Positions 16,436 through 42,853 of a stretch of DNA of 46,095 nt are shown here, piece after piece. The DNA is from a virus. The stretch is from positions 1-46,095 of IMG/VR virus record IMGVR_UViG_3300035661_000106. One strand, given 5' to 3'. The translations under genes were made by a program, and so were the position numbers. The notes under the pieces are model-generated. The model had not been told where the DNA came from. It did no database searches and saw only the letters and a program-made list of their open reading frames with translations. Position 1 is the stretch's first letter; every line of letters starts with the position of its first letter.

Positions 16436-17635
16436 ATGTCAAGGCCGAAGGGGAAAGCTCGAATCTGGTCCAGTGATCCGACGTATCCCGCCGGGGCGAA
16501 CGTCTGGAACAATGCACCCAACAACGCCACGAAGGTGGACCCGGGGGATTCAGCGGTAGCTGGGGGCGTCGTTCCTGATCGCCAGTTCCCGGCCCAGTAT
16601 TTCAATCAATACCAGAACGAACAGTCAGCGCTGACGGCGTACCTGGACACGATTGACGTCCTGAACTGGGGAGCACCGATCGCCACGGGGCTGGTAGTTG
16701 CCTACTCGGGGGCGTCGATCACCTGGGATTCCTACGTGGGGCGAACCTGGATCGTGGGCCTGGACAACGCAAACAGGGGCGATGTCTGGTTCAGCTTCAA
16801 CGGCCTGACGTGGTCAAACGAAATCCTGGGCCTGGGCGTCAATCCCGGCTTCGCGTCGATTGCAGCTGATCCGACTGACGGATCTATGTGGATCGTTTCC
16901 GATATCAATTCGGCGCTGGGGAAGATCTACTTTCTGGCCGCGCCCATGGGGGCCTGGGTATCGTTCACCCTGGCCACGAAAGGTTTTTCCGCAATCGTCT
17001 GGGATGACTACGAAGCCGCGTTCGTGCTCCTGGGGAAGGGTTCCACGAACCATCCAGAGATCTGGACGAACCCCGGCGGCTCGGCCGTATCGGCCACGGT
17101 CGGGAACGCGGCCAGCTACACGGGGGCGATGCAAGTTTGCGCGCTGGGTCCAGGCGTGAAACTGGCCGTGGGAACGACAGGGGGCGGCCTGTCAACAGAG
17201 CGCCTCTGGGCGTCCACGACCCTGGCCGGCCCATGGGTCGATCGGGGCTACGTTCCGGGGGTCGTGGGGGGAACTGGAACGTTCCGAGCCATGGCCTACG
17301 GGGCCGCTGACGGCGTTTTCATGATCGTGACGGGAAGCGCGTCAGGGGATCAGATCTTCACTTCGTCTGACGGCCTTTCCTGGGCGCTCAGATTCTCTTC
17401 TAACTTCTGGGTTTTCTTTTCGCTGGTAGCCAGGGGCGGCGTCTGGGTAGCTCAGATCAAGGATCAGAACAATGTCCTGGGCCAGGCGATCAGCACTGAC
17501 GGGGGCGTGTCCTGGGTCCAGGTCCCCTGGATGTATAACCAGTCAGCTCTGGCCGCCGGGCTCACGGTCCTGGACGGCCGGATCGCGTCGCTTGCGAGTA
17601 ACGCCAGCGTGTCCCTTTCGCTCAGGACCCGCTAG
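16436..17635 (+). CDS. Tail fibre with Asp-box beta-propeller
   Basis: 399 aa, last gene of the late operon. The N-terminus (about 1-85) is a short attachment region. The rest repeats a blade unit ending in an Asp-box-like turn: 'FSFNGLTW', 'ASTTLAGPW', 'SSDGLSW' and 'STDGGVSW', about 50-60 residues apart, as in BNR/sialidase-like propellers. It is expected to recognise a host surface glycan. No catalytic Arg triad or Asp/Tyr pair can be assigned, so receptor binding is more likely than sialidase activity. Its TAG overlaps the stop of the convergent minus-strand gene. Confidence 0.75.
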   Translation: MSRPKGKARIWSSDPTYPAGANVWNNAPNNATKVDPGDSAVAGGVVPDRQFPAQYFNQYQNEQSALTAYLDTIDVLNWGAPIATGLVVAYSGASITWDSYVGRTWIVGLDNANRGDVWFSFNGLTWSNEILGLGVNPGFASIAADPTDGSMWIVSDINSALGKIYFLAAPMGAWVSFTLATKGFSAIVWDDYEAAFVLLGKGSTNHPEIWTNPGGSAVSATVGNAASYTGAMQVCALGPGVKLAVGTTGGGLSTERLWASTTLAGPWVDRGYVPGVVGGTGTFRAMAYGAADGVFMIVTGSASGDQIFTSSDGLSWALRFSSNFWVFFSLVARGGVWVAQIKDQNNVLGQAISTDGGVSWVQVPWMYNQSALAAGLTVLDGRIASLASNASVSLSLRTR

Positions 17636-17874
17636 ACCAGAATCCCCAGCCGGGCCCTGATCTCGCTCAGGGCCTGGGACAGGTCGGGGAAGTCCTGGAT
17701 CGCCCGTTCCAGGGTTCGCCGTTTCGCCCCCAGCGCGGCGGCCGTCTTCGTCAGGTCCCTATTCTCGCCATAGCTCTGGACGATTGCCGCGATCATGGCC
17801 GGCCTGGTTTCATCCAGGGTAAGGCGTGCTCGAATGTCAGAGGTCTGGCCGCTTCCGCGCGTGGGCTGGGGCAT
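17632..17874 (-). CDS. Small Fis-type HTH protein
   Basis: 80 aa. The ATG at 17874 is preferred over one at 17910 because it follows the upstream stop by a few bases and has GGGGGA in front. Residues about 44-66 ('LTKTAAALGAKRRTLERAIQ') form a helix-turn-helix like the Fis/NtrC C-terminal domain. It is probably a DNA-binding regulator of the minus-strand region or of the host. It is the second gene of the cassette driven by the operator promoter at 18280-18308, and its stop overlaps the fibre stop tail to tail. Confidence 0.7.
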   Translation of the reverse strand: MPQPTRGSGQTSDIRARLTLDETRPAMIAAIVQSYGENRDLTKTAAALGAKRRTLERAIQDFPDLSQALSEIRARLGILV

Positions 17875-17879
17875 GGGGA

Positions 17880-18248
17880 TCAGTGTCCCCCGCTCAGGCA
17901 AACATTGCAATACCTGCTACCGGGGGCGGCCAGGAACGGACAGCGCTTCCCCTGAGCGTGGGCCGTGCAACGGCCGATATCCTGGGGCCGTGGATCCGGC
18001 TGGGGCCTGGCGTTACGCCCTTCCAGGTACGCGCTCAGCGCTTCATTGATCTGGAAGGGCGTCAGGGTCTGGACGCCCCAGACCTTCGACAGACGCACGA
18101 TCCGGCCCTCTCCTGACGTATGCCGGCCGGCGGCCGTGGCAAGATCACGAAAGATGACGGCGAAGCCCTGGGGGGCGCGCTGACTCCTAGCGACCCAGCC
18201 CAGCGTGGCCCCCACGATCAGGGCGAACAGGAACATGATAGGGATCAT
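17880..18248 (-). CDS. Membrane-anchored protein with Cys knuckle
   Basis: 122 aa, first gene of its cassette; GAAGGAAGG precedes the ATG. Residues 2-19 ('IPIMFLFALIVGATLGWV') form one membrane span. A helical linker follows, and the C-terminus holds C-x9-C-x10-C-x2-C (about 94-118), likely a metal site. Family unknown. Membrane anchoring combined with a Cys cluster suggests a superinfection or host-envelope interacting accessory protein. It is transcribed from a promoter whose spacer is a perfect 18-bp palindrome. Confidence 0.7.
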   Translation of the reverse strand: MIPIMFLFALIVGATLGWVARSQRAPQGFAVIFRDLATAAGRHTSGEGRIVRLSKVWGVQTLTPFQINEALSAYLEGRNARPQPDPRPQDIGRCTAHAQGKRCPFLAAPGSRYCNVCLSGGH

Positions 18249-18279: not shown

Positions 18280-18308
18280 GTTATACGTCAGCGCTGACGT
18301 AATATCAA
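18280..18308 (-). promoter_or_regulatory. Operator promoter A (perfect 18-bp palindrome)
   Basis: Minus strand: -35 TTGATA (18308-18303), 17-bp spacer, -10 TATAAC (18285-18280). TACGTCAGCGCTGACGTA (18284-18301) is a perfect palindrome filling the spacer. The transcript leader GGCTCACCTGAACGAA is shared with the other three copies. Confidence 0.8.
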
Positions 18309-18310
18309 GC

Positions 18311-18349
18311 AAAAGAAAACGGCCCAGATCCCTTTCAGGACCTGGGCCG
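18311..18349 (-). terminator. Terminator of the 82-aa gene
   Basis: Stem CGGCCCAGATCC (18320-18331) with GGACCTGGGCCG (18338-18349), followed on the minus strand by TTTTCTTTT (plus 18311-18319). It separates the 82-aa gene from operator promoter A immediately downstream. Confidence 0.8.
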
Positions 18350-18372
18350 CTTCGGCCGCCGGGGGCGTCAGC

Positions 18373-18621
18373 TCACGTGATCGAATCGAGGGGGACGGCG
18401 CTGATCTTGTAGCGCTTCCCGTCCTTGCGGAACGTGGCGACCATGACCGAGCCGTCCGGCATGGGGAGCTTGTGGGGGCCGGGGCCGTGGTCCTTGACGA
18501 TCTGGGCGATCGTGACGCCGGCCCCGTCTTCCAGCTTCTCCACTTCCTTCGACGCGGCGAGGATGACGGCGTAGTCCTGGCCGACCGTGGCCATGACCGT
18601 GGACTTATCGATCTTGCTCAT
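18373..18621 (-). CDS. Small hypothetical protein
   Basis: 82 aa. Start at 18621 chosen because AAAGGGAGATCC stands before it; the longer frame lacks a site. Alpha/beta: an N-terminal helical part ('TVMATVGQDYAVILAASKEV') then beta strands ('DGSVMVATFRKDGKRYKISA'). No known motif. Single-gene unit with its own promoter (18683-18711) and terminator (18311-18349). Confidence 0.7.
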   Translation of the reverse strand: MSKIDKSTVMATVGQDYAVILAASKEVEKLEDGAGVTIAQIVKDHGPGPHKLPMPDGSVMVATFRKDGKRYKISAVPLDSIT

Positions 18622-18682
18622 GTTCTGGATCTCCCTTTGGGGTAGTTCGGGGGCCCGAATCCGGGCCGGTTTCGAGTTACGG

Positions 18683-18711
18683 TTATGACAGACGAACGGC
18701 CTGGACGTCAA
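18683..18711 (-). promoter_or_regulatory. Putative promoter without operator
   Basis: Minus strand TTGACG (18711-18706), 17 bases, TCATAA (18688-18683), upstream of the 82-aa gene. Same spacing as the four operator promoters, but the spacer has no palindrome. The -10 match is weak. Confidence 0.45.
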
Positions 18712-18714
18712 TCA

Positions 18715-19299
18715 CTAATCGTCAGGGTCGTTCGGTTCGTCCCAGCCTTCCGTGACCACGCGAAAGCTAGTCACCCGATACTGGGCCGGGACAGGATCAG
18801 AGGGCGGGGCGTCAGGCGCTCTGGTCACGTGGCCGAAGTTATAGTCAGGCTCTTTCGGCGTCAGCCCCTGAGCCGGCTCAGGGGCGATCGGAACCCGGCG
18901 AACGGGGGCGAAGACCTGGACAGGGTTACCCGTCGTGGGCTCCTGGGGGCCCAGGATGGCCCTGACCTTCGACGCGGCGGCCAGGGCCTGGGTCGTGGCT
19001 TCGGGTAAACCCGGGGGCCACTTGTGAGCCCAGCCCATTTTATCCCAGGCCCTTTTCAAGGAGGCCAGTTCTCGCCAGCCGATCAGATCCCGGCCGGGGC
19101 TCAGGAACACGGCCGCTTTCAGGACTTCCAGATCGCTGGCCGGGCCTTCCGTGAACAGGTCGGAAACCAGACGGGAAGCCATACGCTGGGCCGCGGCCAG
19201 GATCACGGGGCTATAATTCTCCTGACCACGATCAGAAGCCCAGGCGATCAAGTGGGCGGCCAGCGCGCAACGCTGGGGAAAGGTCAGCTTCGTGATCAT
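18715..19299 (-). CDS. Hypothetical protein, cassette B second gene
   Basis: 194 aa; ATG overlaps the stop of the preceding gene (ATGA). The first 120 residues are helical, with three Trp residues near 75-95 ('IGWRELASLKRAWDKMGWAH'), and the remaining C-terminal tail is Pro-rich and probably disordered. No recognised domain. Co-transcribed with the 153-aa gene from operator promoter B. Confidence 0.7.
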   Translation of the reverse strand: MITKLTFPQRCALAAHLIAWASDRGQENYSPVILAAAQRMASRLVSDLFTEGPASDLEVLKAAVFLSPGRDLIGWRELASLKRAWDKMGWAHKWPPGLPEATTQALAAASKVRAILGPQEPTTGNPVQVFAPVRRVPIAPEPAQGLTPKEPDYNFGHVTRAPDAPPSDPVPAQYRVTSFRVVTEGWDEPNDPDD

Positions 19300-19757
19300 G
19301 ACCCGCCCCCGTCAGCCAGGATCCGATCCCTGAGCCCCAGCGCCGTATCCAGCGCGTTCGCGATCGGGTCTGACTTGTACCCCTCCCCCTCGCTTCCGTC
19401 ATCCTTGCAGGGCTGGAACAGGCCAGCCCGGGCCAGTTCAATGGCCCGGGACACGGCCACGAATTCGGTCACGTTCCCGTCAGAGCGGCGCATGATGTAG
19501 TCAGTAACGTCCTGTTCGCGCTCAGCATAGGTCAGGACGTGAGCCACGCGAGGGGGCGGGGCCGCCGGCATCGGATCCCAGGGCGTGTTCCCGTCTTCCA
19601 GATCCGTGACCCGGCGATCCGATTCCTTCGCCAGATCGCGGAACCCGTTCCTGATCGCTACCCATTCGTCACAGGACCTGGCATCCGACGTCAGCCGAGC
19701 CAGGAGCATGTTCAGCGTGGCGATCATTTCGGGGGTCGTGATTCGGTTCGTGGACAT
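19296..19757 (-). CDS. Hypothetical protein, cassette B first gene
   Basis: 153 aa. Start at 19757 (ATG after AAAGG) is chosen over an upstream in-frame ATG that lies inside the promoter spacer. Helical throughout, acidic, with 'ARLTSDARSCDEWVAIRNGF' and 'AVSRAIELARAGLFQPCKDD'. It resembles the many helical accessory proteins of unknown role in phages. The cassette is a two-gene unit with the following gene. Confidence 0.7.
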   Translation of the reverse strand: MSTNRITTPEMIATLNMLLARLTSDARSCDEWVAIRNGFRDLAKESDRRVTDLEDGNTPWDPMPAAPPPRVAHVLTYAEREQDVTDYIMRRSDGNVTEFVAVSRAIELARAGLFQPCKDDGSEGEGYKSDPIANALDTALGLRDRILADGGGS

Positions 19758-19787
19758 GGTCAGGGCCTTTCGTTCAGGTGAGCCCGG

Positions 19788-19816
19788 GCAATACGTCAGA
19801 GCTGACGCACGGTCCA
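19788..19816 (-). promoter_or_regulatory. Operator promoter B
   Basis: Minus strand: TGGACC (19816-19811), 17-bp spacer, TATTGC (19793-19788). The spacer contains CGTCAG-AG-CTGACG (plus strand 19794-19807). The leader CGGGCTCACCTGAACGAAAG follows. Confidence 0.8.
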
Positions 19817-19817
19817 G

Positions 19818-19858
19818 CAAAAAGAAACGGGCCCGATCCTTTTCTGGATCGGGCCCGT
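19818..19858 (-). terminator. Terminator after Cys-rich lipoprotein gene
   Basis: ACGGGCCCGATCC (19827-19839), 6-base loop, GGATCGGGCCCGT (19846-19858): a perfect 13-bp stem followed on the minus strand by TTTCTTTTTG. It ends the upstream operon directly before operator promoter B. Confidence 0.85.
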
Positions 19859-19883
19859 CCTTCGGCCGGCGCTCAGCCGTGGG

Positions 19884-20585
19884 TCAGCGCTGGCTGATCC
19901 AGCGTTCTTCGTATTCCCAGCACGCCCCCACGTCCAGGCCCGTGGCCGGGTCACAGACCAGACCACAGGCCGGGTTCACGAACCCGACGCAATCGCCGGC
20001 CGTGACGCACGTCTGATCGTCGGGGCTCAGCCGCCCCCGGCCGTAGCAGAGATCCGCCGGGTCGTGGTCGTCCACGCAAGCGCCGAACTCGCCCAGACAC
20101 GGCGTCACGAAACACGCCTTGCAGCTGGCCGAGCCCGGGCCGCCGTTGATTGAAACCGGGGGCGTGGCGTACATGATCCCAGAACAGGGGCTGGAACAGT
20201 TCGCGGCCATGCACGCTTCCAGATCGGCGAAGACCTGATCCGTGGCCGGGGACGTGGGGCCGAGCATGGCGGGGGCGTTCGTCTCCTGAACCCAGGTCAG
20301 GAGCAGATCGACGCAATAGGACGGCTCAGGGGCCGAGCCGCCCCCGCCCCCCGAGCCGCCCTGATTCAGGTCCTGGACCGTGGGCCGGCCGCGGCCCGGG
20401 GGCTGGGTCAGCTGGGGGGCGTGGGCCCGAAGGTAGCCCTGGGCCAGGGCATCTTCGTAGCGGCTGACGGCGGCCGGGTCGGGCTCGGCCGAGCCGCCGG
20501 CCCCGCTGTCCACGGGGCGGGTCTGGGAACTGCAAGCCCCGAGCACGGTCAGCGCCAGAGCAAGAAACGCGATCCTTCGATTCAT
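19884..20585 (-). CDS. Cys-rich lipoprotein
   Basis: 233 aa. Signal 'MNRRIAFLALALTVLGACSS' with lipobox LGAC (lipidated Cys at 18). A Gly/Ser/Pro-rich spacer (about 20-85) is followed by a domain with about 14 Cys, including 'ASCKACFVTPCLGEFGACVD' (about 157-176) and 'VCDPATGLDVGACW'. Such Cys-rich outer-membrane lipoproteins are common in myxobacteria and seldom phage-encoded. Inferred role: altering the host surface during infection or lysogeny, for example superinfection exclusion. GAAGGGG precedes the ATG; a strong terminator follows. Confidence 0.8.
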   Translation of the reverse strand: MNRRIAFLALALTVLGACSSQTRPVDSGAGGSAEPDPAAVSRYEDALAQGYLRAHAPQLTQPPGRGRPTVQDLNQGGSGGGGGSAPEPSYCVDLLLTWVQETNAPAMLGPTSPATDQVFADLEACMAANCSSPCSGIMYATPPVSINGGPGSASCKACFVTPCLGEFGACVDDHDPADLCYGRGRLSPDDQTCVTAGDCVGFVNPACGLVCDPATGLDVGACWEYEERWISQR

Positions 20586-20631
20586 GGTGATCCCCTTCGC
20601 CCTGAACTGGGCGCTGGATCACTACCACGAA

Positions 20632-21339
20632 TCAGCCAGGGATCAAAAGGAACCCGGCGGGAAGGATCTTCCCAGCCCCGCCATGGGTCACCTTCACCCT
20701 GAGCTGATGTCCGTTCACGATCGTGGGTACGGTCCAGCTGAGCTGATTCGGGACGTTCGCCGTCAGGCCGTTCGTTCCCCCGGTCACCTTCGTGGTCTTC
20801 GTGCTGAGCACGACCGGATTCGCCCCGGCGTTGTCGTAATCCAGGAACGTGAAGATCAGCCAGTCGGTATCACTTCCGATCACAGCCGAGCCGGGGACGA
20901 TCTGGGGCTGACCCCCGAATGCGAAATCGACCCCCGTATTATTCGACATCAGGATTTGTTCCGGGACATCGGTCCCGGCCGGGATCGCCGTGGGGAAATT
21001 GACGATGAATCCCCGCGTTGCAGTGGGCCCCGTGGGCCCCGCGTCCCCCTGATCTCCCTTCGGACCCGTGACGGGCCCGGGCCCCGTACCGAAGACGAAC
21101 GCCCCCGAAGCGGCCGTGATCGCCTTGATCTTGACGTTCCAGGAGCTGACGCCAGTCCCGGCGATCAGCGTCGTGTCAACGCCGGTCAGATCCGTGATCG
21201 TGACCGAACTCCCTTCCCCTTCCGGTAGCTGGATCCACTCGGCGGGGGCCGCCGGGATTCCGTCGCCGTCCAGGTCTGTGGTGATATGAATCGCGGCCAC
21301 GAACGCGGCCACGGACCGAACGAAACTGATCTTGCTCAT
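20632..21339 (-). CDS. Virion-like protein with short collagen segment
   Basis: 235 aa. N-terminal 'HITTDLDGDGIPAAPAEWIQ' includes a D-x-D-x-D-G loop of the calcium-binding type. A beta domain follows, then six Gly-X-Y triplets ('GPVTGPKGDQGDAGPTGP', about 88-105), and a C-terminal beta domain of 130 residues. The overall design parallels the connector-fibre at 2782. It is likely a fibre or capsid decoration protein, though encoded among minus-strand accessory genes, away from the late operon. Confidence 0.7.
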   Translation of the reverse strand: MSKISFVRSVAAFVAAIHITTDLDGDGIPAAPAEWIQLPEGEGSSVTITDLTGVDTTLIAGTGVSSWNVKIKAITAASGAFVFGTGPGPVTGPKGDQGDAGPTGPTATRGFIVNFPTAIPAGTDVPEQILMSNNTGVDFAFGGQPQIVPGSAVIGSDTDWLIFTFLDYDNAGANPVVLSTKTTKVTGGTNGLTANVPNQLSWTVPTIVNGHQLRVKVTHGGAGKILPAGFLLIPG

Positions 21340-21361
21340 GGCCCCAGGGTATCACAGGGGC

Positions 21362-21925
21362 TCAGCCCTTGCTGGCTTGCTCGGCCGCTTCCTGGATCTT
21401 TCTTAGATCCCTAAGCTGTTCAATGCTCAGCCCGGCCACAAGCTCTGTCCCTGTGTCGATCTTATCGGTCGATTCGCCCAGGGCCAGGCGCTCTGTCCTG
21501 ACGCCCCGATCGATCAGCCGTAGGACGTCCCGAACCTGAATCAGTCCTGGCATGCCGTCAGGTCTGGAAGCGACCTTGATCCACTTGTCCAGTTCGTGTT
21601 CGCCCAGGGTTTGAAGTTTCCTCGCCAGTTTCCCGTGTCGCTCAGCACGCTGGGCCGCGTCTTCGCGCGTGACCTGTTCGATCGTCTGAACCCTGAGCGC
21701 GTCAAGGTGCATGTCGAAGGCCCGGGCCCTGTCGATCCAACCGTCTTCCCAGCATAGGGTTTGCAGCTGGGCCCAGGACACAGGGCACGAAGGCGCTTTC
21801 GCTACATCGATCAGCCGGCGGGGGATCGGCTGGGCCAGGTAAAGCTGGAAGCACGCCCAGGAAAGATCCGTGTCAAAGGGCTGGCGTGTCCAGGGCTCGG
21901 CCGGATTGTAGTCATAGACGCCCAC
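21362..21925 (-). CDS. terS: Terminase small subunit-like protein
   Basis: 187 aa from a GTG. The N-terminal half carries the HTH pattern of small terminases: 'ACFQLYLAQPIPRRLIDVAK', then a helix and 'WEDGWIDRARAFDMHLDALR', the familiar W-x2-R-x-x-A-[FW]-D-x-H segment. The rest is a long helical region ('ERHGKLARKLQTLGEHELDK') suited to ring assembly. It would recognise the packaging site and load TerL. The large subunit lies about 20 kb away on the other strand. A regulator with a terminase-like HTH is the alternative. Confidence 0.7.
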   Translation of the reverse strand: MGVYDYNPAEPWTRQPFDTDLSWACFQLYLAQPIPRRLIDVAKAPSCPVSWAQLQTLCWEDGWIDRARAFDMHLDALRVQTIEQVTREDAAQRAERHGKLARKLQTLGEHELDKWIKVASRPDGMPGLIQVRDVLRLIDRGVRTERLALGESTDKIDTGTELVAGLSIEQLRDLRKIQEAAEQASKG

Positions 21926-21958
21926 GCCCCGAGCATAGCAGGGGGCGGGGCGCTGGGG

Positions 21959-22180
21959 CTAGTGTCCTTCACTGGCCCGGCCTAGTTGCCAGGCCAGCCG
22001 TCTGGCCGCGTCGCTCTGGGCGACCGTGATCAGGCCCCGGCGTTCGTCTGTCAGGGCGTAATCCCAGACGGCCCCGGCCAGCAATCGAAGCACGAAGATC
22101 GCGATCGGGCTCAGGGGCTGATCACGGTCTGGATCCGTGGCTTCCCAGGCTTCCCGCTCCTGGCGCTGTGTGCGGCTCAT
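21959..22180 (-). CDS. Small protein, paralogue of the 61-aa neighbour
   Basis: 73 aa. Start at 22180 is chosen because its ATG overlaps the previous stop (ATGA). Contains 'LSPIAIFVLRLLAGAVWDYA' (about 27-46), matching the neighbour's 'VSPIHFWALQFLAGAVLESM', so the two arose by duplication. A hydrophobic helix flanked by charged residues suggests membrane or protein-protein contact. Function unknown. Confidence 0.6.
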   Translation of the reverse strand: MSRTQRQEREAWEATDPDRDQPLSPIAIFVLRLLAGAVWDYALTDERRGLITVAQSDAARRLAWQLGRASEGH

Positions 22181-22362
22181 GATCGCATGCTCGCACGGTC
22201 CAGGGCCGCGGCCAGCTTCGTCAGCTGACGCTTCCGCCGTCCTTGCCATTGCCCTGGGTTGTCATGTCGCCAGCCGAACCCGGGATCGAACGCCATGCTT
22301 TCGAGCACGGCCCCGGCCAGGAATTGCAGGGCCCAGAAGTGGATCGGGCTCACGGTCGCCAC
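22177..22362 (-). CDS. Small protein, paralogue of the 73-aa neighbour
   Basis: 61 aa from a GTG. 'SPIHFWALQFLAGAVLESMA' (5-24) aligns with the adjacent 73-aa protein; the C-terminal half differs but both end in an Ala/Arg-rich helix ('LTKLAAALDRASMRS' versus 'DAARRLAWQLGRASEGH'). Coupled to both neighbours by overlapping starts and stops. Confidence 0.55.
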   Translation of the reverse strand: MATVSPIHFWALQFLAGAVLESMAFDPGFGWRHDNPGQWQGRRKRQLTKLAAALDRASMRS

Positions 22363-22595
22363 CTGGATCCCAGGTAGTGGGCCAGGGGACTGGGGACGTG
22401 TTCGTCAGGACAGTGAGCCTGGCCCAGACCGTAGATCGGCTCAGCGGCCCGGAACAGGTGGCCGAAGGCCCTACCCTGGCAACGGGCCGCGGTCAGTTCT
22501 TTTCCAGGTATGCCTTCCCCGAAACCCTGGGCCCCGGAACAGGCCATGGCTTCGGACAGCTGATCCTGGATCGTGTCGGGAACATGGCGGGTCAT
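22350..22595 (-). CDS. Small protein, paralogue of the 77-aa neighbour
   Basis: 81 aa; the ATG overlaps the stop of the 77-aa gene (ATGA). 'GRAFGHLFRAAEPIYGLGQ' (about 41-59) matches 'GAALGHAFRAAELAYDLGQ' in the neighbour. Cys at 19, 39 and 62. Unknown role; a duplicated helical unit. Confidence 0.55.
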   Translation of the reverse strand: MTRHVPDTIQDQLSEAMACSGAQGFGEGIPGKELTAARCQGRAFGHLFRAAEPIYGLGQAHCPDEHVPSPLAHYLGSRWRP

Positions 22596-22825
22596 ACCTT
22601 CGGCCCTACGTGCGCGGCGATTACTCGGGGCAAGCGAACCAGGACCCGCTGGATCCCGTGTCTCTGACCCAGGTCATAGGCCAGTTCAGCGGCCCGGAAG
22701 GCATGACCCAGGGCCGCCCCGTGATATTCAGCCTTCGCCAGTTCGTCCTGACGATCGGCCGCGGCCCTGCAACCATAGGCCAGGTTAACGACTATCACCA
22801 GACGATTGCCGATCCTGTCCTTCAC
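22592..22825 (-). CDS. Small protein, paralogue of the 81-aa neighbour
   Basis: 77 aa from a GTG. Helical; 'DELAKAEYHGAALGHAFRAA' and 'YDLGQRHG' are shared with the following gene. No motif beyond the duplicated 'A-x-GHxFRAAE-x-x-Y-x-LGQ' core. Confidence 0.55.
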   Translation of the reverse strand: MKDRIGNRLVIVVNLAYGCRAAADRQDELAKAEYHGAALGHAFRAAELAYDLGQRHGIQRVLVRLPRVIAAHVGPKV

Positions 22826-22839
22826 TTCGGATCCCCCGG

Positions 22840-23016
22840 CTACTGATCGATCACTTCGTAGCTTCGATCGCTCAGCTCAGCCCGCAAGCGCTGGATCTCC
22901 TGGGCCTGTTCGCCATTGACCACGATCACGGCGTCATAGTGTTCCCGGGCTTCTTCCAGCTTTGCTTTCAGAGCCCGGTGGATCCGGCGCTGGGTGCGCT
23001 TCTGGGCCCTGTTCAC
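22840..23016 (-). CDS. Small coiled-coil protein
   Basis: 58 aa, GTG start at 23016 whose GTGA overlaps the stop of the next gene upstream. Basic N-terminus ('NRAQKRTQRRIHRALKAKLE') continuing as one long charged helix ('GEQAQEIQRLRAELSDRSYE'), with heptad-like Leu/Ala spacing. Likely a small coiled coil, perhaps nucleic-acid binding because of the basic start. Codon usage and tight coupling support it as real. Confidence 0.6.
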   Translation of the reverse strand: MNRAQKRTQRRIHRALKAKLEEAREHYDAVIVVNGEQAQEIQRLRAELSDRSYEVIDQ

Positions 23017-23222
23017 GGCTCACGCCCCCCAGCATCCTTCCACGCCTTGCGCTCCTGGGTCTCCTGGGCGTCAGCCATGGCCCGAAGCTGGGTCATACAG
23101 GCTTCTTCCGATTCCCCTTCTTCCCGCTCCACTTCCCAGCCGAACCAGACCTTTTGAGTGTGGCCCCGGCCGAACTTCCCCAGTTCGATGGTTCGCCCGT
23201 AACTGACCGATTTTACTTTCAT
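23013..23222 (-). CDS. Small hypothetical protein
   Basis: 69 aa. Start at 23222 chosen for GAAGGGAGATC in front; the upstream in-frame ATG at 23396 lies inside the lipoprotein gene. Basic beta-like start ('MKVKSVSYGRTIELGKFGRG'), then a Trp-Phe-Gly-Trp segment and an acidic helical C-terminal half. Similar layouts occur in small phage proteins, but no family is recognised. Confidence 0.6.
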   Translation of the reverse strand: MKVKSVSYGRTIELGKFGRGHTQKVWFGWEVEREEGESEEACMTQLRAMADAQETQERKAWKDAGGREP

Positions 23223-23253
23223 GATCTGATCTCCCTTCGGGCCTGAGCCCTGT

Positions 23254-23511
23254 TCACTTCCCGCCCCCGCCCCCGGTCGTGGCCCCGGTCGAATCGACCC
23301 AGCACGGGAACCCGGCGTCAGCCGAGCACGGGGGAAGCGACGTCTGGATCGGGGGGCCGGCTGGGCCCACAAGCTGGGGGTCCCCGTCTTCGCCACCCTG
23401 GCCCCCCGAGCCGCCGTCCCCTTCCGAATCCCCGGCGTCCCAGTGGCGAGGATTGACGGCCGAGCACCCAGCCAGGAGCAGGGCCGCGATCAGGATCAGC
23501 TTCGTTTTCAT
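23254..23511 (-). CDS. Small Gly/Asp-rich lipoprotein
   Basis: 85 aa. Signal 'MKTKLILIAALLLAGCSAV' with lipobox LAGC (Cys 16). The mature chain is a Gly/Asp/Ser-rich tether ('DAGDSEGDGGSGGQGGEDGD'), then two Cys and a Gly-rich end. This tether composition is typical of myxobacterial lipoproteins. AAAGGGAGATC precedes the start. Probably a surface-exposed accessory protein of the infected host. Confidence 0.7.
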   Translation of the reverse strand: MKTKLILIAALLLAGCSAVNPRHWDAGDSEGDGGSGGQGGEDGDPQLVGPAGPPIQTSLPPCSADAGFPCWVDSTGATTGGGGGK

Positions 23512-23540
23512 CTTCGTGATCTCCCTTTGGTTCAGTCTAC

Positions 23541-23590
23541 CCCAGAACCCAGGGTCCGATCCAGAAAAGGATCGGGCCCTGGGTTCTGGG
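23541..23590 (-). terminator. Long hairpin, terminator of cassette C
   Basis: CCCAGAACCCAGGGTCCGATCC (23541 onward, 22 nt) pairs with the segment ending at 23590 with one mismatch, around a 6-base loop. No long T tract follows on the minus strand, but the stem is among the strongest in the window. It shares the GATCC-loop-GGATC apex with the terminator at 19818-19858. Confidence 0.75.
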
Positions 23591-23610
23591 CCCGAAGGCC
23601 CAGGCCGCGT

Positions 23611-23925
23611 TCAGGGAAGCGTCAGCCGAACTTCCACCTGACGGCCCCGGTTCGGTTCCACCTGTTCGGTCCCCAGGGGCTTCCCCAGGTCAATGGTGAT
23701 CCAGCGCGTCCCCACGGCCTTGACGTTGTGGAATTCGTTAACCAGATTCAGGCCGTCCAGCCCCGACCCCTGGACGGCTTCGGGCCCGAAGTAGCCCTTG
23801 ATCCTGACCACAGGCTTGACCTTGAAAAGTTTCTTGAAAGTGGCGATCACGCCCTGGATCTCTGTGGCGCTGGGCTGGGTCAGGACAAGGGCCGAGCCAG
23901 TGATCGTGATGGTTCCGGGATTCAT
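23611..23925 (-). CDS. Hypothetical protein of cassette C
   Basis: 104 aa, single gene between operator promoter C and the long hairpin. Start at 23925 follows AAAGG; an upstream in-frame ATG lies inside the promoter. Alpha/beta: 'GTITITGSALVLTQPSATEI' strand-helix, then 'KPVVRIKGYFG' and a beta-rich end. Overall pattern (strand, helix, 'V-x-P-V-V-R-I') recalls the 102-aa protein of the neighbouring cassette, so they may be distant paralogues. Confidence 0.7.
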   Translation of the reverse strand: MNPGTITITGSALVLTQPSATEIQGVIATFKKLFKVKPVVRIKGYFGPEAVQGSGLDGLNLVNEFHNVKAVGTRWITIDLGKPLGTEQVEPNRGRQVEVRLTLP

Positions 23926-23955
23926 CGTCGGGGCCTTTCGTTCGGGTGCGCCCGG

Positions 23956-23984
23956 ACAATACGTCAGCTCTGACGCATGGTCCA
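23956..23984 (-). promoter_or_regulatory. Operator promoter C
   Basis: Minus strand: TGGACC (23984-23979), 17-bp spacer, TATTGT (23961-23956). The spacer contains CGTCAG-CT-CTGACG (plus 23962-23975). Leader CGCACCCGAACGAAAGG follows. Confidence 0.8.
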
Positions 23985-23991
23985 CGTAAAT

Positions 23992-24028
23992 CGACCCCGC
24001 CCCCGAAAATAGATCGGGGGCTGGGTCG
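23992..24028 (-). terminator. Terminator of cassette D
   Basis: CGACCC-C-GCCCCCGA (23992-24006) with TCGGGGGC-T-GGGTCG (24014-24028), 7-base A-rich loop. It follows the 102-aa gene and precedes operator promoter C. Confidence 0.75.
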
Positions 24029-24032
24029 GGGC

Positions 24033-24341
24033 TCAGCGCGCCAGGTGGTATTCGACGATCAGATCCGGGACCTGTTCCGGGACCAGATCCAGCGTTCGGC
24101 CCCCGGTCATGTCCAGACGCACGAACAGGCGCTGGATGACCACGACCCGGCGGGGCTCCTGGAAGGACACGGGAAGGCCCGTCATGACGGCCCGGCGGCT
24201 GACCGTGGGGGCCGCGATCTTGATCAGGGGGTAGCTTCCAGTCAGGGCTTCAAACGCTTCCACCCTGCTCCTGATCGCTTCACAGGTCATGGGCCCGAAG
24301 AAGACGGCCCGGCCTTCCCGGATCTCAATTCGGTTTTTCAC
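24033..24341 (-). CDS. Hypothetical protein, cassette D second gene
   Basis: 102 aa; ATG overlaps the stop of the winged-helix gene (ATGA). Begins with a strand ('NRIEIREGRAVFFGPMTCEA'), a helix and a second strand ('YPLIKIAAPTVSRRA'), then 'RRVVVIQRLFVRLDMTGG'. The layout resembles the 104-aa protein of cassette C. No catalytic motif. Translational coupling suggests it works with the DNA-binding partner. Confidence 0.65.
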   Translation of the reverse strand: MKNRIEIREGRAVFFGPMTCEAIRSRVEAFEALTGSYPLIKIAAPTVSRRAVMTGLPVSFQEPRRVVVIQRLFVRLDMTGGRTLDLVPEQVPDLIVEYHLAR

Positions 24342-24760
24342 AGCTTCCAGATCCGGCGGCCAGCGCCCTGACCTTCGGCCGCGATCACGCGCTCGCCCAG
24401 GAGCATGGCCACAGCGTCACGCCAGACGCTGGAATCCCCGACCACGCCCACGGCCGTTTTCAATTCGCCGGGGCTTTTCTTCGTCCCCTTCGGGTCCAGG
24501 GCGGCCATGATCTTCTGGGCCAGGGCCTGGGTCTTCGTCTGATCCTTCTGGGCCGGGGCGTCAAAGCTGACGTCAATCGTGGCCCCACCCTGGGTCGCTT
24601 GCGTGGCCCCTTCGATGATCAGGGACGCTGACATACCCAGCCCCGAAACGTCATTCCGAAGCGTACTCAGCGCGTCCAGGTATGCCTGGCGAAGCGCCGG
24701 GTTCCTGTCCAGGAGCAGGTTCAGAAGCCACAGCTGATCGGGTTTGATCCAGTCCTTCAT
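24338..24760 (-). CDS. Putative winged-helix DNA-binding protein
   Basis: 140 aa, first gene of cassette D; AAAGGAATT before the ATG. The N-terminal half is helical with a Gln/Thr-rich linker (about 50-80). The C-terminal 50 residues ('KSPGELKTAVGVVGDSSVWR' then 'LLGERVIAAEGQGAGRRIWK') read as a winged helix: recognition helix around S-S-V-W-R, wing strands V-I-A-A-E-G. As the gene nearest the control region it is one of three candidates for the protein that binds CGTCAG-N2-CTGACG; autoregulation would then be built in. Confidence 0.65.
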   Translation of the reverse strand: MKDWIKPDQLWLLNLLLDRNPALRQAYLDALSTLRNDVSGLGMSASLIIEGATQATQGGATIDVSFDAPAQKDQTKTQALAQKIMAALDPKGTKKSPGELKTAVGVVGDSSVWRDAVAMLLGERVIAAEGQGAGRRIWKL

Positions 24761-24788
24761 AGTCTCAATTCCTTTCGGGTGAGCCGGG

Positions 24789-24817
24789 ACAATACGTCAG
24801 CCCTGACGCATGGTCAA
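24789..24817 (-). promoter_or_regulatory. Operator promoter D
   Basis: Minus strand: TTGACC (24817-24812), 17-bp spacer, TATTGT (24794-24789). The spacer contains CGTCAG-CC-CTGACG (plus 24795-24808). It drives the winged-helix gene and the 102-aa gene, and has the best -35 match of the TGGACC/TTGACC group. Confidence 0.8.
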
Positions 24818-24842: not shown

Positions 24843-24918
24843 GCCGATCGGTGTAGGTAAAGGTCACACTTCCCCGACCCTGGCCAGGGCTGGCTGTCCT
24901 ACATCATCCCACGTCCAG

Positions 24919-24999
24919 GGCTCTGGCCATGTACTGAAGGTCGCGCCAGAGGTCCAGATCGGGGCCGGCTCTGGCCAGGCTCTGACCATGGCCAGAGCC
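24919..24999. repeat. 11-bp iterons (GGCTCTGGCCA)
   Basis: Exact copies at 24919-24929 and 24967-24977, a one-mismatch copy (GGCTCTGACCA) at 24978-24988, and an exact inverted copy (TGGCCAGAGCC) at 24989-24999. The last three abut without gaps. More partial CTGGCCA copies occur at about 24888, 25010, 25057 and 25183. Confidence 0.75.
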
Positions 25000-25308
25000 T
25001 GAACATGACCTGGCCATGCCTACGCCGATCGGTCGATTTGCTCAGTTCCAGTCCTTCTGGCCACTAGTGGAGTAAAACCTATTAAGAAAGCCCAAAATCT
25101 TCGATCTGTCTTACATGAGAATACATTTTATAGAAATCGGGGGGGTCCTTAAAGGTCTTTAGACACGCTGGACAGGCCATCCCTGGCCATAGCTACCGCG
25201 CGCCAGAGCCCCGAGCCTGGCCGGATACGTAGCTTAGAAAACTAAGATTCGTCCAGGGCGTGGATTCGGCGTTGACGCCGGCCCTGAAATACTTCCTAGT
25301 GGGGGACC

Positions 25309-25605
25309 ATGACTCGCAAGGAAGCCAATCAAGCCTTCGGCCAGGTCCTGAGCCAGTTCAGAGCCAGGGCGGGAAAGACCCAGGCCCAGACGGCCGAAGC
25401 CCTGGGCGTGGACCCGGCCACGATCGCGAACTGGGAGAACGCCAGGGCCGAGCCCAGGGCGTCCCACGTCATGCGTCTGGCGCTGTTCTTCGGGATCCAG
25501 GTCGTGGACCTGTTCCAGGCCCTGACGGATACGCTGAACGGGTCCAGCCCTGTTCCCCCGCCCCCGGAATCCTACGCGGGGCCGATCACGGGTTCACGGG
25601 TCTAG
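25309..25605 (+). CDS. XRE/Cro-type HTH regulator
   Basis: 98 aa, GGGGGA before the ATG. Residues about 8-62 are a typical HTH: 'VLSQFRARAGKTQAQTAEAL', then 'GVDPATIANWENARAEPRA' with the recognition helix A-T-I-A-N-W-E-N. The C-terminal part is Pro-rich. First gene of the plus-strand early operon, next to the control region, so it probably regulates the early switch and may bind the 24.8-25.3 kb sites. Its TAG overlaps the GTG of the methylase (TAGTG). Confidence 0.85.
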   Translation: MTRKEANQAFGQVLSQFRARAGKTQAQTAEALGVDPATIANWENARAEPRASHVMRLALFFGIQVVDLFQALTDTLNGSSPVPPPPESYAGPITGSRV

Positions 25606-29171: not shown

Positions 29172-30521
29172 ATGGCGGGAAAGAATTCACAGGCTCAGTT
29201 CAAAGAAACCTGGGGTGCTTCGTCCACGACCACGATCGGGGCCGTGTCCCCGGAATCGATCCTGATCGTGGGTCACGATATCCCCCTGGATGACACTAAC
29301 CAGGATTGCTGGGACGAAGCCCGGCTGATCTGGTCCCTGGCGAACCCGATCGACCCCCAGCACGTTATCACCCGTCTGGACCTGGGCGGGAAGATCCCGG
29401 CCGTGGACGTGATCAAGCGCGACGGGAAGATCCTGGCCGTGGACGGCCGGCGGCGCATCATTGCGGCCAGGGCCGCGAACAGGCTGATTCTGGCCGGCGG
29501 GGGTTCCCCCGACGAATTGATCGAAATCCAGATCATTCCCCTGAATAAAGGGGCTGACGTGGAAGTGTGCGTCAGGGGCCCGAACGCGGGCCGGCTGGAC
29601 GATCCGCCCTACGTCAGCGCGAAGAACGCGGCCAGGCTCAGGGCTCGGGGGAAGGACAACGCCCAGATCGCCCAGATCATGGTAGTGACGCCGATCAGCG
29701 TCACGAACTGGTTCTTTTACCTGGACGTGGACCCGGCGATCCGGGCCATGGTCGAAGATCCGAACCTGAACAAATCGGATCGCCTTCCGTTCGCCATGGT
29801 CGTGGAACTGGGGAAGCTGTGTAACCCGGCCGATCCCGACGATTCCAGGGGCCCGGAACAGTATCAGCGCCAGGCCACGGCTCTGGACTACCTTCGACGC
29901 ACGAACGCCCCCCTGACGGGCGAACGGGGCCGGGAGAACGCGAAGGCCGTGGTTCGGGCCCTCATGTCTGGCGAGGCGTTGAACCTTCCCCGTTCGCCGA
30001 ATGACGAAGACGAACAGGACGGGCCGATCCTGATCCAGGTCCCGCCGGGGACGCCGGGGATCGAAGGACTGACGGGCCAGGATCAAGGCGTGACGGGTTC
30101 GGCCGAAGCCCAGGCCCTGGCGTCCCAGCCCGGCGCAATTCGTCAGCGTGGGGGCGCTACGGGTCAGCGCGGCCCCACGCTCAGCCAGGGCTGGCACTTG
30201 ACCAGCCGGGCCATGCGAGAAGTCTTCGCCCGAATCGAGCCCACGGCCGGCCAGCCCCTGAAAACCGAAGCCGATCGGGTCGCTTATGCCGTGCTGGCTG
30301 TGGTCACGGGCCAGGACCCGCACGGCGACGGCCTGAAAGACTGGCCCTACATCCAGAACGCTTTCAAGGGCGTGGTTCGGTCCCCCGTGATCGACCCGGA
30401 CAAGTGCCAGAACCCGACCTGTGATCGGGGCCATGACACGAAGCGAAAGGACACTTGCAAGAAATGCGAGGGGACGGGGAAGGCCCCCGCCCCGAAGCCG
30501 GCGGCGGGGAAGAAGAAGTGA
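29172..30521 (+). CDS. ParB-like nuclease-fold protein with zinc knuckle
   Basis: 449 aa. About 60-105 carries the ParB/Srx pattern ('GGKIPAVDVIKRDGKILAVD' followed by 'GRRRIIAARAANR'). About 140-170 reads as an HTH ('ARLRARGKDNAQIAQIMVVT'). The middle (about 255-330) is a Gln/Gly-rich linker. The C-terminus has C-x4-C ... C-x2-C ('CQNPTCDRG', 'CKKCEGTG') and a Lys/Pro tail. No ParA accompanies it, so a transcription or replication regulator is likelier than plasmid-style partition. Confidence 0.8.
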   Translation: MAGKNSQAQFKETWGASSTTTIGAVSPESILIVGHDIPLDDTNQDCWDEARLIWSLANPIDPQHVITRLDLGGKIPAVDVIKRDGKILAVDGRRRIIAARAANRLILAGGGSPDELIEIQIIPLNKGADVEVCVRGPNAGRLDDPPYVSAKNAARLRARGKDNAQIAQIMVVTPISVTNWFFYLDVDPAIRAMVEDPNLNKSDRLPFAMVVELGKLCNPADPDDSRGPEQYQRQATALDYLRRTNAPLTGERGRENAKAVVRALMSGEALNLPRSPNDEDEQDGPILIQVPPGTPGIEGLTGQDQGVTGSAEAQALASQPGAIRQRGGATGQRGPTLSQGWHLTSRAMREVFARIEPTAGQPLKTEADRVAYAVLAVVTGQDPHGDGLKDWPYIQNAFKGVVRSPVIDPDKCQNPTCDRGHDTKRKDTCKKCEGTGKAPAPKPAAGKKK

Positions 30522-41284: not shown

Positions 41285-42853
41285 ATGGTTGACCTGTTAG
41301 CGGCCAGGGTAGCAACAGACCGCGCGATCGTGGCGAAGGGGACGCTTTACGATTTCTTCGCCATGGTCTGGCCGATGATCGACCCGGCCCCACTCACTCT
41401 GAACTGGCACTTAGAAGAGAAGTGCAAGCATTTAGAAGCTGTGTCAGCCGGCCTGATCAGGAAGCTGATCATAAACGAACCCCCGGGTTTCGGGAAATCA
41501 AACACTGTCAACGTGATCTGGAACGCCTGGGAATGGGTCAAGCGCCCCCAGACTAAATTCCTTTACGCCAGCTTCGACGCCTCCCTAGTCGGAACCCGTG
41601 ACGGCGGGAAGGTGATCAAGCTGTTACAGTCTGACTGGTTCAGGCTTCGCTGGGGCGATCTTCTGTCCCCCGGGAAGCCGGCGGCGTCCTGGTTTGAAAC
41701 GAAGGCCGGCGGCTTTCGGTTCTCCACTTCCCCCGGGGGAAAGGGGACTGGACGCCATGCAAATATCAGGGTCGTGGACGATCCGAATAAACCGAAGGAC
41801 GTCAGCGGGGGCGGGACCATGACCCGAACGGCGCTCAGGGCCGTTTCAGAGTGGGCCGCTAATACCCTATCCAGCCGGGCCACGGACCTGAGAACGGTTC
41901 GGGACGTCCTGATCATGCAACGCTTACACGAAGACGATCTGGCCGGGGAAATGCTGGCGAAGGGCGGCTGGGTCCACCTATGCCTTCCCATGGTCTTCGA
42001 TCCAGCTTCGGCCTGTTTCACTGAATGGTCTGGCGGCTCGGGGGGCGATCGACGCACGTTCGCCGGGGAGCTACTGTTCCCCGAACGGGCCCCCCAGGAA
42101 GTGGTGGACGAACTCAAAAACGATAAAATGGGCCCTGACGTGTTCGAGGCTCAGTGTCAGCAAAACCCGGTTAGGCCCGGGGGGACCGTGTTCCGCCGGG
42201 AGTGGTGGAAATTCTGGCACTATCGCGAAGGCATCCCAGCCCCCTGTTTATGTGACGCCTGTTTCAAGGCGAAACGAAGCCGGCCTGGCTGTCCTACCAG
42301 AACCGAGATCCAGATCTGTCGGCCCCTTCCCCCGACTGGCTACGAAGCGCAATCGTGGGATTGCACGTTCAAAAAGACGGACACGACCGATCCCGTGGCC
42401 GGGGGCGTCTTTCGGGTCAATATGGGTGGCGTCTATCTAGTGGACTGCAAGAACGAACGCGCTTCATTTACTGACACGGTCCAATCACTTCGGGTCATGT
42501 CTCTGAAATGGCCCCACGCCTATGACAAGCTGATCGAAGATAAGGCGAACGGGCCGGCCGTTGAAAACGCGCTCAGGGCTGAGATCCCCGGGCTCACTCT
42601 GGTGAACCCCCAGGGCGGGAAGGAAGCCAGAGCGAACGCTGGATCGATCTATTTCAGCGGGGGAAAACTGTTCTTGCCTCACCCTGATATTTATCCGTGG
42701 GTCTGGTCCTACATGACCCAGCATGAGAGTTTCCCCCGGGGCGTGAACGATGATATGGTTGACATGACGTCCCAGCTTCTGGTTCGGTTAAAGGCCCACT
42801 CTTCGCTGGAAAGCTTCGCGGCGGCCATGAAAAAACTTCGGGGCGAATCATGA
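41285..42853 (+). CDS. terL: Terminase large subunit
   Basis: 522 aa. ATPase: Walker A 'IINEPPGFGKSNTVN' (about 63-77), Walker B 'RVVDDPNKP' (about 160-168). Nuclease: 'QSWDCTFKKTD' (about 357-367), 'LIEDKANGPAVE' and 'GVNDDMVDMTSQ' (about 491-502), the acidic metal ligands. An insertion with five Cys ('CLCDACFKAKRSRPGC', about 321-336) lies between the two domains and may bind zinc. It powers DNA packaging and cuts the concatemer. First gene of the late operon, with no terminase small gene beside it. Confidence 0.93.
   Translation: MVDLLAARVATDRAIVAKGTLYDFFAMVWPMIDPAPLTLNWHLEEKCKHLEAVSAGLIRKLIINEPPGFGKSNTVNVIWNAWEWVKRPQTKFLYASFDASLVGTRDGGKVIKLLQSDWFRLRWGDLLSPGKPAASWFETKAGGFRFSTSPGGKGTGRHANIRVVDDPNKPKDVSGGGTMTRTALRAVSEWAANTLSSRATDLRTVRDVLIMQRLHEDDLAGEMLAKGGWVHLCLPMVFDPASACFTEWSGGSGGDRRTFAGELLFPERAPQEVVDELKNDKMGPDVFEAQCQQNPVRPGGTVFRREWWKFWHYREGIPAPCLCDACFKAKRSRPGCPTRTEIQICRPLPPTGYEAQSWDCTFKKTDTTDPVAGGVFRVNMGGVYLVDCKNERASFTDTVQSLRVMSLKWPHAYDKLIEDKANGPAVENALRAEIPGLTLVNPQGGKEARANAGSIYFSGGKLFLPHPDIYPWVWSYMTQHESFPRGVNDDMVDMTSQLLVRLKAHSSLESFAAAMKKLRGES

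Follow-up and report, generated by a model that had tools for sequence, protein, structure and literature searches.

Dispersed operators that serve a single phage repressor have been described in several systems. The C1 repressor of phage P1 has 22 dispersed operators, which are asymmetric 17-base-pair (bp) sites of the form ATTGCTCTAATAAATTT scattered over the genome (PMC8546580). The temperate Cluster A mycobacteriophages (PMC6550527, PMC9283540) carry 20-30 operators or stoperators per genome, mostly off promoters and with specificities that differ between lineages (PMC6550527); these 13-bp sites are asymmetric (PMC9283540) and block elongation (PMC6550527, PMC9283540). In phage SP-beta, the repeated intergenic element SPBRE, found at the promoters of about ten genes, was known by its sequence long before its repressor MrpR, a protein with a tyrosine-recombinase fold and a 15-bp motif (PMC10516654). 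Furthermore, the SAS/ESAS motifs of Cluster K are repeated at the starts of many small genes, contain inverted repeats and are conserved with orthologues (PMC3203893, PMC12699233). Here we analyze the window, i.e., the whole stretch of 46,095 bases of the viral record IMGVR_UViG_3300035661_000106 (G000 below), in which four leftward promoters share a palindrome, TRCGTCA-R-NN-Y-TGACGTA, inside their spacers, and we propose that this palindrome is the operator of one phage-encoded repressor, probably the XRE protein encoded at 25309.

Since dispersed phage operators are already known, what appears to be new here is that the sites are symmetric, lie in the spacer with one site per promoter, are clustered in one arm, and seem to change in type between related lineages. 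The proposed system would share with P1 C1 the control of several promoters together by one repressor through many operators, with no integrated prophage needed; however, the sites here are palindromes of 14-18 bp that always lie in a 17-bp promoter spacer and are clustered in one arm. As in Cluster A, multiple sites are oriented with transcription, and the site sequence and the repressor differ together between lineages, which in Cluster A is heteroimmunity, but the sites here are palindromic and every conserved one lies in a promoter, which sets them apart from stoperators. SPBRE is likewise a repeated intergenic element in phage promoters, whereas our candidate regulator is a small helix-turn-helix (HTH) protein, unlike MrpR, and the palindrome lies within the spacer. 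The SAS motifs also differ, in that they lie near the start codon, and ESAS has 17-bp arms and a variable spacer, no promoter-spacer operator having been described for either (PMC3203893, PMC12699233). The repressor of phage phiC31, which is temperate and has a serine integrase, binds conserved inverted repeats near many early promoters, whose transcription units are short; we liken the present locus to it by this general description of inverted repeats at many promoters, not by sequence.

The four leftward promoters lie on the minus strand and have a common -35, a spacer of exactly 17 bp and a -10, with CGTCAG-NN-CTGACG in the spacer:

18280..18308, minus strand: promoter A, TTGATA-N17-TATAAC; operator core 18286-18299, perfect 18-bp palindrome 18284-18301
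19788..19816, minus strand: promoter B, TGGACC-N17-TATTGC; operator 19794-19807
23956..23984, minus strand: promoter C, TGGACC-N17-TATTGT; operator 23962-23975; the nearest recognizable promoter 5' of the small terminase gene
24789..24817, minus strand: promoter D, TTGACC-N17-TATTGT; operator 24795-24808

In all four, CGTCAGNNCTGACG is followed by TAT, and all four share the leader GGC[TG]CACC[TC]GAA; the perfect 18-bp palindrome of copy A is TACGTCAGCGCTGACGTA. The positions, hexamers, spacing, spacer palindrome, leader and extended copy A given in an initial annotation of this DNA were thus all confirmed, and a 62-nucleotide repeat family recovered independently has exactly these four promoters as its members. 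No hexamer is more frequent in this genome than CTGACG (110 occurrences on the plus strand), and we therefore used two null models, an order-1 Markov model and the genome's own hexamer frequencies. The exact CGTCAGNNCTGACG, observed four times, was absent from 60 order-1 Markov sequences and expected 0.16 times from the window hexamer frequencies, and CGTCAGNNCTGACG followed by TAT occurs four times in the genome, on one strand only, and never in the Markov simulations. Two more CGTCA-N4-TGACG cores (5402 and 24559) lie inside coding sequence without promoter elements. The window ends share a 353-bp overlap with 98.3% identity, which indicates that the genome is nearly complete and hence that four is the full count of sites; no further such promoters were found in this 46-kilobase (kb) genome. 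We ruled out an RNA hairpin as an explanation of the palindrome, which is upstream of its own transcript and whose sixth pair is A/C in many sites of two related phages (G002 and G016, below). A search of 17.5-25.4 kb against Rfam gave no match, and thus no riboswitch or RNA family is indicated there.

Equivalent promoters were found in three relatives, namely G002 (IMGVR_UViG_3300031716_000017), which is colinear with the window phage and was found through its large terminase (67% identical), and G015 (IMGVR_UViG_3300037010_002200; 24 kb) and G016 (IMGVR_UViG_3300010371_000015), both found through the 809-amino-acid gene adjoining the XRE gene (85% and 59%, respectively). We refer to these three and the window phage, all of which are uncultured, as the CGTCA phages. 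Together they hold 21 equivalent promoters, each co-oriented with the gene behind it (4 in G000, 5 in G002, 5 in G015 and 7 in G016), one motif being repeated at several promoters of each phage, as in multi-promoter operator regulons such as those of P1 C1 and SPBRE. The five promoters of G002 have CGTCAA-NN-[CT]TGACGTAT, three of the five in G015 have one change in the right arm, and the seven sites of G016 are exact and all lie within the cluster, with none elsewhere in that genome. All but one of the 21 sites have a 17-bp spacer, the exception being 18 bp (G002, 18203). In the 21-site core TRCGTCA-R-NN-Y-TGnCGTA, the CGTCA, TG, CG and TA are invariant, the inner pair is purine/pyrimidine in every site, and the two central bases are variable. 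Information content is 2.0 bits at the eleven invariant core positions but 0.3-0.8 bits at the second base of the -35 and over the last half of the -10, so that selection is at least as strong on the palindrome as on the promoter. Drift of the palindrome in related phages, which the initial annotation had named as evidence against its proposal, is therefore not what we see, and the element is almost certainly a conserved operator-like one.

When a 23-bp pattern was scanned against 2.9 million viral contigs, the window's own record excepted, several matches per contig occurred solely in G002, G015 and G016, while the single-match contigs comprised one coding repeat seen three times, one low-GC contig and an unrelated 136.5-kb virus. 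The exact 26-bp consensus had no match in the viral contigs, because the relatives differ from it in the inner base pair, the right arm or the leader. Annotated phage records showed no DNA similarity to the window phage and their terminase matches were all below 60% identity, hence no annotated or experimental record was usable; a search of genome contigs also returned no relative of the window phage.

Operator-free promoters in the same cluster provide an internal control. When the leftward strands of the four phages were scanned for sigma-70 promoters, nearly all hits were operator promoters (13 of 15); to these is added the promoter of the gene at 18373-18621, which is small and conserved in all four phages:

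18682..18711, minus strand: operator-free promoter of gene 18373-18621, TTGACG-N18-CATAAC

Operator-free promoters precede the homologues in G015, G002 and G016 as well, all four lacking the palindrome, and TTGACG-N18-CATAAC is kept between G000 and G015. This argues that the palindrome is a regulatory site and no fixed part of the promoter, and the steady operator-free promoter suggests that gene 18373-18621 escapes the switch. Given its place between -35 and -10 and its conservation across four phages, the palindrome is very probably a site bound by a repressor, in line with the single regulator and polymerase-blocking operator of the initial annotation.

Four proteins had been put forward there as binders, those at 24338, 25309, 39067 and 17632. 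Two of them remain serious candidates, the leading one being the following:

25309..25605, plus strand: XRE / Cro-CI type regulator (HTH_3), 98 amino acids in one domain; its gene opens the rightward arm

This protein matches HTH_3 at 3.4e-12 and PF01381 with 46.6 bits against a curated cut-off of 23, placing it in the XRE/HTH_3 family. Its structural model has five helices (predicted local distance difference test score, pLDDT, 83) and is unstructured after about residue 76; the closest folds are those of ClgR and of the restriction-modification (R-M) C proteins C.BclI and C.AhdI. Since it has the HTH only, without a C-terminal dimerization or self-cleavage domain, it is not a repressor of the CI/LexA type; it rather resembles lambdoid Cro/CI-type and C proteins, single-domain XRE dimers that act on short promoter palindromes. 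However, C proteins control their own R-M genes, while the sites here lie at four promoters of the opposite arm; the XRE gene overlaps a DNA methyltransferase gene in the window, which like the fold would fit a C protein, but in G002 no methyltransferase separates the XRE gene from the next gene that is conserved, and we identified no endonuclease. Orthologues of the XRE protein occupy the same place in G002, G015 and G016 and in the distant relatives G004, G006 and G017, whereas homologues of 39067, 17632 and 24338 were found only in the CGTCA phages, and for this reason we favor the XRE protein. As neither 39067 nor 17632 has a strong HTH match, we keep both low as binders.

The distant relatives G004, G005, G006 and G017 lack the CGTCA palindrome and have a 14-bp ATAAGG-N4-CCTTAT instead, the operator type thus following the phage lineage. 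There is one such site in G004 and four in each of G005, G006 and G017; the gene-proximal copy of G005 and G017 and the single copy of G004 lie in a promoter spacer and end in the -10. G017 has a further operator, with one mismatch, that overlaps the start codon of its XRE gene, as expected for autoregulation. We set aside the palindromes of two other contigs (L169 and L170), which are iteron-like repeats that lack promoters; a further contig (L161/G023) has its own palindrome and an integrase. The more distant G018 (L182-L184) carries five near-identical modules GGGTTGTGTATAAATATACAGGGTGTATA (20999, 30493, 32181, 34193 and 43710), which place another palindrome in promoter-like spacers dispersed over the genome, and has a weak XRE match at 42399.

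We propose that TRCGTCA-R-NN-Y-TGACGTA in the 17-bp spacers of the four sigma-70-type promoters is the operator of one phage-encoded dimeric repressor, that the bound dimer would occupy the space that the polymerase needs between -35 and -10, and that four leftward units would thereby be switched together. These would comprise a winged-helix protein, small DNA-binding-like proteins and, via promoter C, the small terminase subunit and a fibre-like protein. The likeliest repressor would be the Cro-like XRE protein 25309, encoded across the divergent intergenic region from the leftward arm; being first in the rightward arm, its synthesis would shut the leftward arm in the course of infection, or hold it inactive. 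Incoming genes would land in the conserved [terminator]-[promoter/operator]-[leader] junctions and be controlled from the outset. We put the probability of this whole explanation, and of the XRE protein as the binder, at roughly 0.6. The sequences show the sites and their conservation, the operator-free neighbours, and the position and conservation of the XRE gene; binding, repression, the XRE protein as the binder and the timing are inferred. In favor of the XRE protein, its recognition helix starts with V-D in the CGTCA phages and with Y-[S/T/H] in the ATAAGG phages (Y-Q at the same position in the XRE protein of L137), a split along the two operator types. Several points weigh against the explanation. 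The XRE promoter of the CGTCA phages has no operator. The split in the recognition helix is confounded with phylogeny, as there are two clades. Of the ATAAGG sites, just a single one in each of G004, G005 and G017 is in a good promoter, the rest forming an array without a -35. Lastly, the gene of the second serious candidate lies directly behind an operator in three of the four CGTCA phages (G000, G015 and G016), and its product could be a self-regulated repressor:

24338..24760, minus strand: gene behind promoter D, 140 amino acids, with a C-terminal domain predicted to be a winged helix; conserved throughout the CGTCA phages

If this protein were the binder, it would shut its own gene and the other three units by negative autoregulation, and the XRE protein would control something else. 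It is a real rival, because its family occurs in each of the four CGTCA phages but in no ATAAGG phage, a range identical to that of the CGTCA operator, and because of the operators that precede its gene. Its model has a winged-helix topology and two of the four members match Pfam CvfB_WH, but the evidence for wing and fold is moderate (mean pLDDT 63), and comparison with winged-helix structures in the PDB gave probabilities up to 1.00 with E values of at least 0.02. Moreover, the homologue in G002 has an operator-free promoter, and the analogous palindromes of G004, G005, G006 and G017 would be left unexplained. We therefore regard winged-helix autoregulation as rather unlikely, yet the strongest of the alternatives to an XRE repressor.

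It is quite improbable that the palindrome is a host regulator site exploited by the phages, with the leftward arm answering to the state of the host. Such a site might be suggested by the unrelated 136.5-kb virus (G024; L194-L205, IMGVR_UViG_3300017700_000469), in which neither candidate regulator was found and which has about eight repeats of a partly similar promoter element, TTGCAT..CAGCTTTGACGTA..TATTGAG, two of them containing a perfect TACGTCAAAGCTGACGTA palindrome. However, this element is mostly asymmetric and is probably a separate invention, several 23-bp matches were confined to three relatives among the 2.9 million contigs, and the operator type tracks the phage lineage. More improbable still is an activator site, or a promoter class of a modified polymerase or sigma factor. 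Help might indeed be needed where the -35 and -10 match the consensus at only four of six positions, as in several copies (TGGACC, TATTGT), but every copy has a recognizable -35 and -10, most at 17-bp spacing, those of G002 are near consensus (TTGACA/TTGACT, TATACT/TATGAT), and the phage proteins that were searched yielded neither an RNA polymerase nor a sigma factor. MerR-type activators act on spacers of 19-20 bp, in contrast to the 17 bp here, and a symmetric site within the spacer fits occlusion. Finally, an origin by chance or codon usage from the frequent CTGACG is refuted by the recurrence of the sites in three other phages, four being seen against 0.16 expected, all in register with -35 and -10.

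The XRE repressor reading does not imply lysogeny. Tyrosine integrase (PF00589) was absent from the window phage and from 12 of the 13 other phages tested (13 of 14 in all), serine recombinase (PF00239) from all 13 tested, and no relative of the lineage was found in 84,980 prokaryote species genomes. Neither the recombinase nor the prophage relatives of a temperate immunity region were thus found, and timing during infection is as likely a role as lysogeny; the repressor-silenced set of the initial annotation, if read as in a prophage, is not borne out. The phage may be virulent or persist as a plasmid, and the regulon would be a coordinated switch of the leftward arm, serving timing or immunity.

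The leftward arm spans about 24,817 to 17,632. The rightward genes run from 25309 through replication genes, the large terminase (41285) and the portal (42850) and then across the ends through structural genes to 17635. Besides gene 24338, the following genes lie behind the four promoters:

24033..24341, minus strand: second in unit D; paralogous to the gene at 23611
23611..23925, minus strand: lies behind promoter C; has relatives that follow operator sites in G002 (17864) and G015 (3442)
21362..21925, minus strand: small terminase subunit, in the leftward arm (phrog_6299, 7e-6); orthologues in G002, G015 and G016
20632..21339, minus strand: conserved collagen/fibre-like protein, adjoins the small terminase gene
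19296..19757, minus strand: first gene behind promoter B (ATG 19757)
18715..19299, minus strand: second gene of unit B; the G002 homologue is directly behind an operator promoter (19924)
17880..18248, minus strand: first gene behind promoter A; the homologue in G002 and G016 is pushed distal by a different first gene
17632..17874, minus strand: distal gene of unit A, for a small HTH-like protein that all four CGTCA phages conserve

No function was found for the cassette proteins beyond those listed. Upstream of the small terminase and fibre-like genes, the first promoter that can be recognized carries the operator in each of the four phages, 0.9-2.0 kb away, and the regulon thus appears to include the small terminase subunit. 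The accessory genes only, or morons, that were first suggested are therefore at best part of the picture: units A and B do have their own promoter and terminator, but the conserved small terminase gene follows in unit C, and there are shared or paralogous genes besides. The cassette genes had also been called unrelated, which holds in part, the exceptions being the paralogues 23611 and 24033 with their kin behind operators in G002 and G015. Duplication of a promoter module with gene replacement is supported by site A. At its position, the four phages have four different first genes, while each retains a distal member of the 17632 family and at least three, namely G000, G002 (judged by eye) and G016, retain the 17880 family, the pattern expected for gene exchange behind a fixed promoter. 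Two small paralogous genes are also adjacent at 22350-22825 (22350-22595 and 22592-22825).

Hairpins mark most of the junctions:

18316..18353, minus strand: intrinsic terminator directly 5' of promoter A, 17 pairs, T tail
19825..19860, minus strand: intrinsic terminator directly 5' of promoter B, 15 pairs, T tail
23993..24027, minus strand: strong hairpin 5' of promoter C, 13/14 pairs, weak T tail

Promoter D is preceded by a short 7-bp hairpin only, so that the strong hairpins earlier said to end most cassettes are T-tailed terminators at A and B but not at C and D. Across the 21 sites, a strong hairpin ends within 15 nucleotides of the -35 at about 13, in most cases with a T tail. Just 3' of gene 23611, a long hairpin (23541-23595) with 22-nucleotide arms that are 95% complementary contains a 28-nucleotide inverted copy of the terminator at 19829-19856. 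It may act as an attenuator or a terminator that separates unit C from the small terminase gene, and read-through from promoter C to that gene in G000 is therefore uncertain.

More tentatively, these phages might form a non-integrating lineage with one arm as a plug-in regulon, the junctions being docking points, in which sister lineages have undergone a wholesale exchange of repressor-operator specificity (CGTCA to ATAAGG), one operator per promoter replacing an array at a single promoter; we consider this broader picture possible but doubtful. No new principle of regulation is involved. The value of the system is that regulator, operators and controlled genes can be traced together through several related uncultured phages, offering a testable protein-DNA pair for an otherwise uncharacterized lineage. 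If the XRE protein is the binder, two natural operator specificities and their regulators would be available for reading the HTH code, and the junction structure indicates how phages could acquire genes while keeping control.

Upstream of the XRE gene, 25228-25310 is conserved with G015 (GAAAACTAAGATTCG and CGTTGACGCC), and CTTAGAAAACTAAG is palindromic in the window copy; this region may be a separate promoter or operator for the XRE gene. Within the divergent region between promoter D and the XRE gene (24850-25308), which is a candidate replication origin, lie repeats of TCTGGCCA and, at 25060-25160, the 100 bp with the highest AT content in the genome; the equivalent regions of G004 and G006 have GAGACAC repeats. 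In G016 (L176:12274-12289), and also at L147:8613, there is a near-perfect bacterial ParB site, GTTTCACGTGAAAC, which matches parS at 15 of 16 positions; that of G016 lies directly 3' of an operator promoter, and the window phage has a ParB-like protein at 29172.

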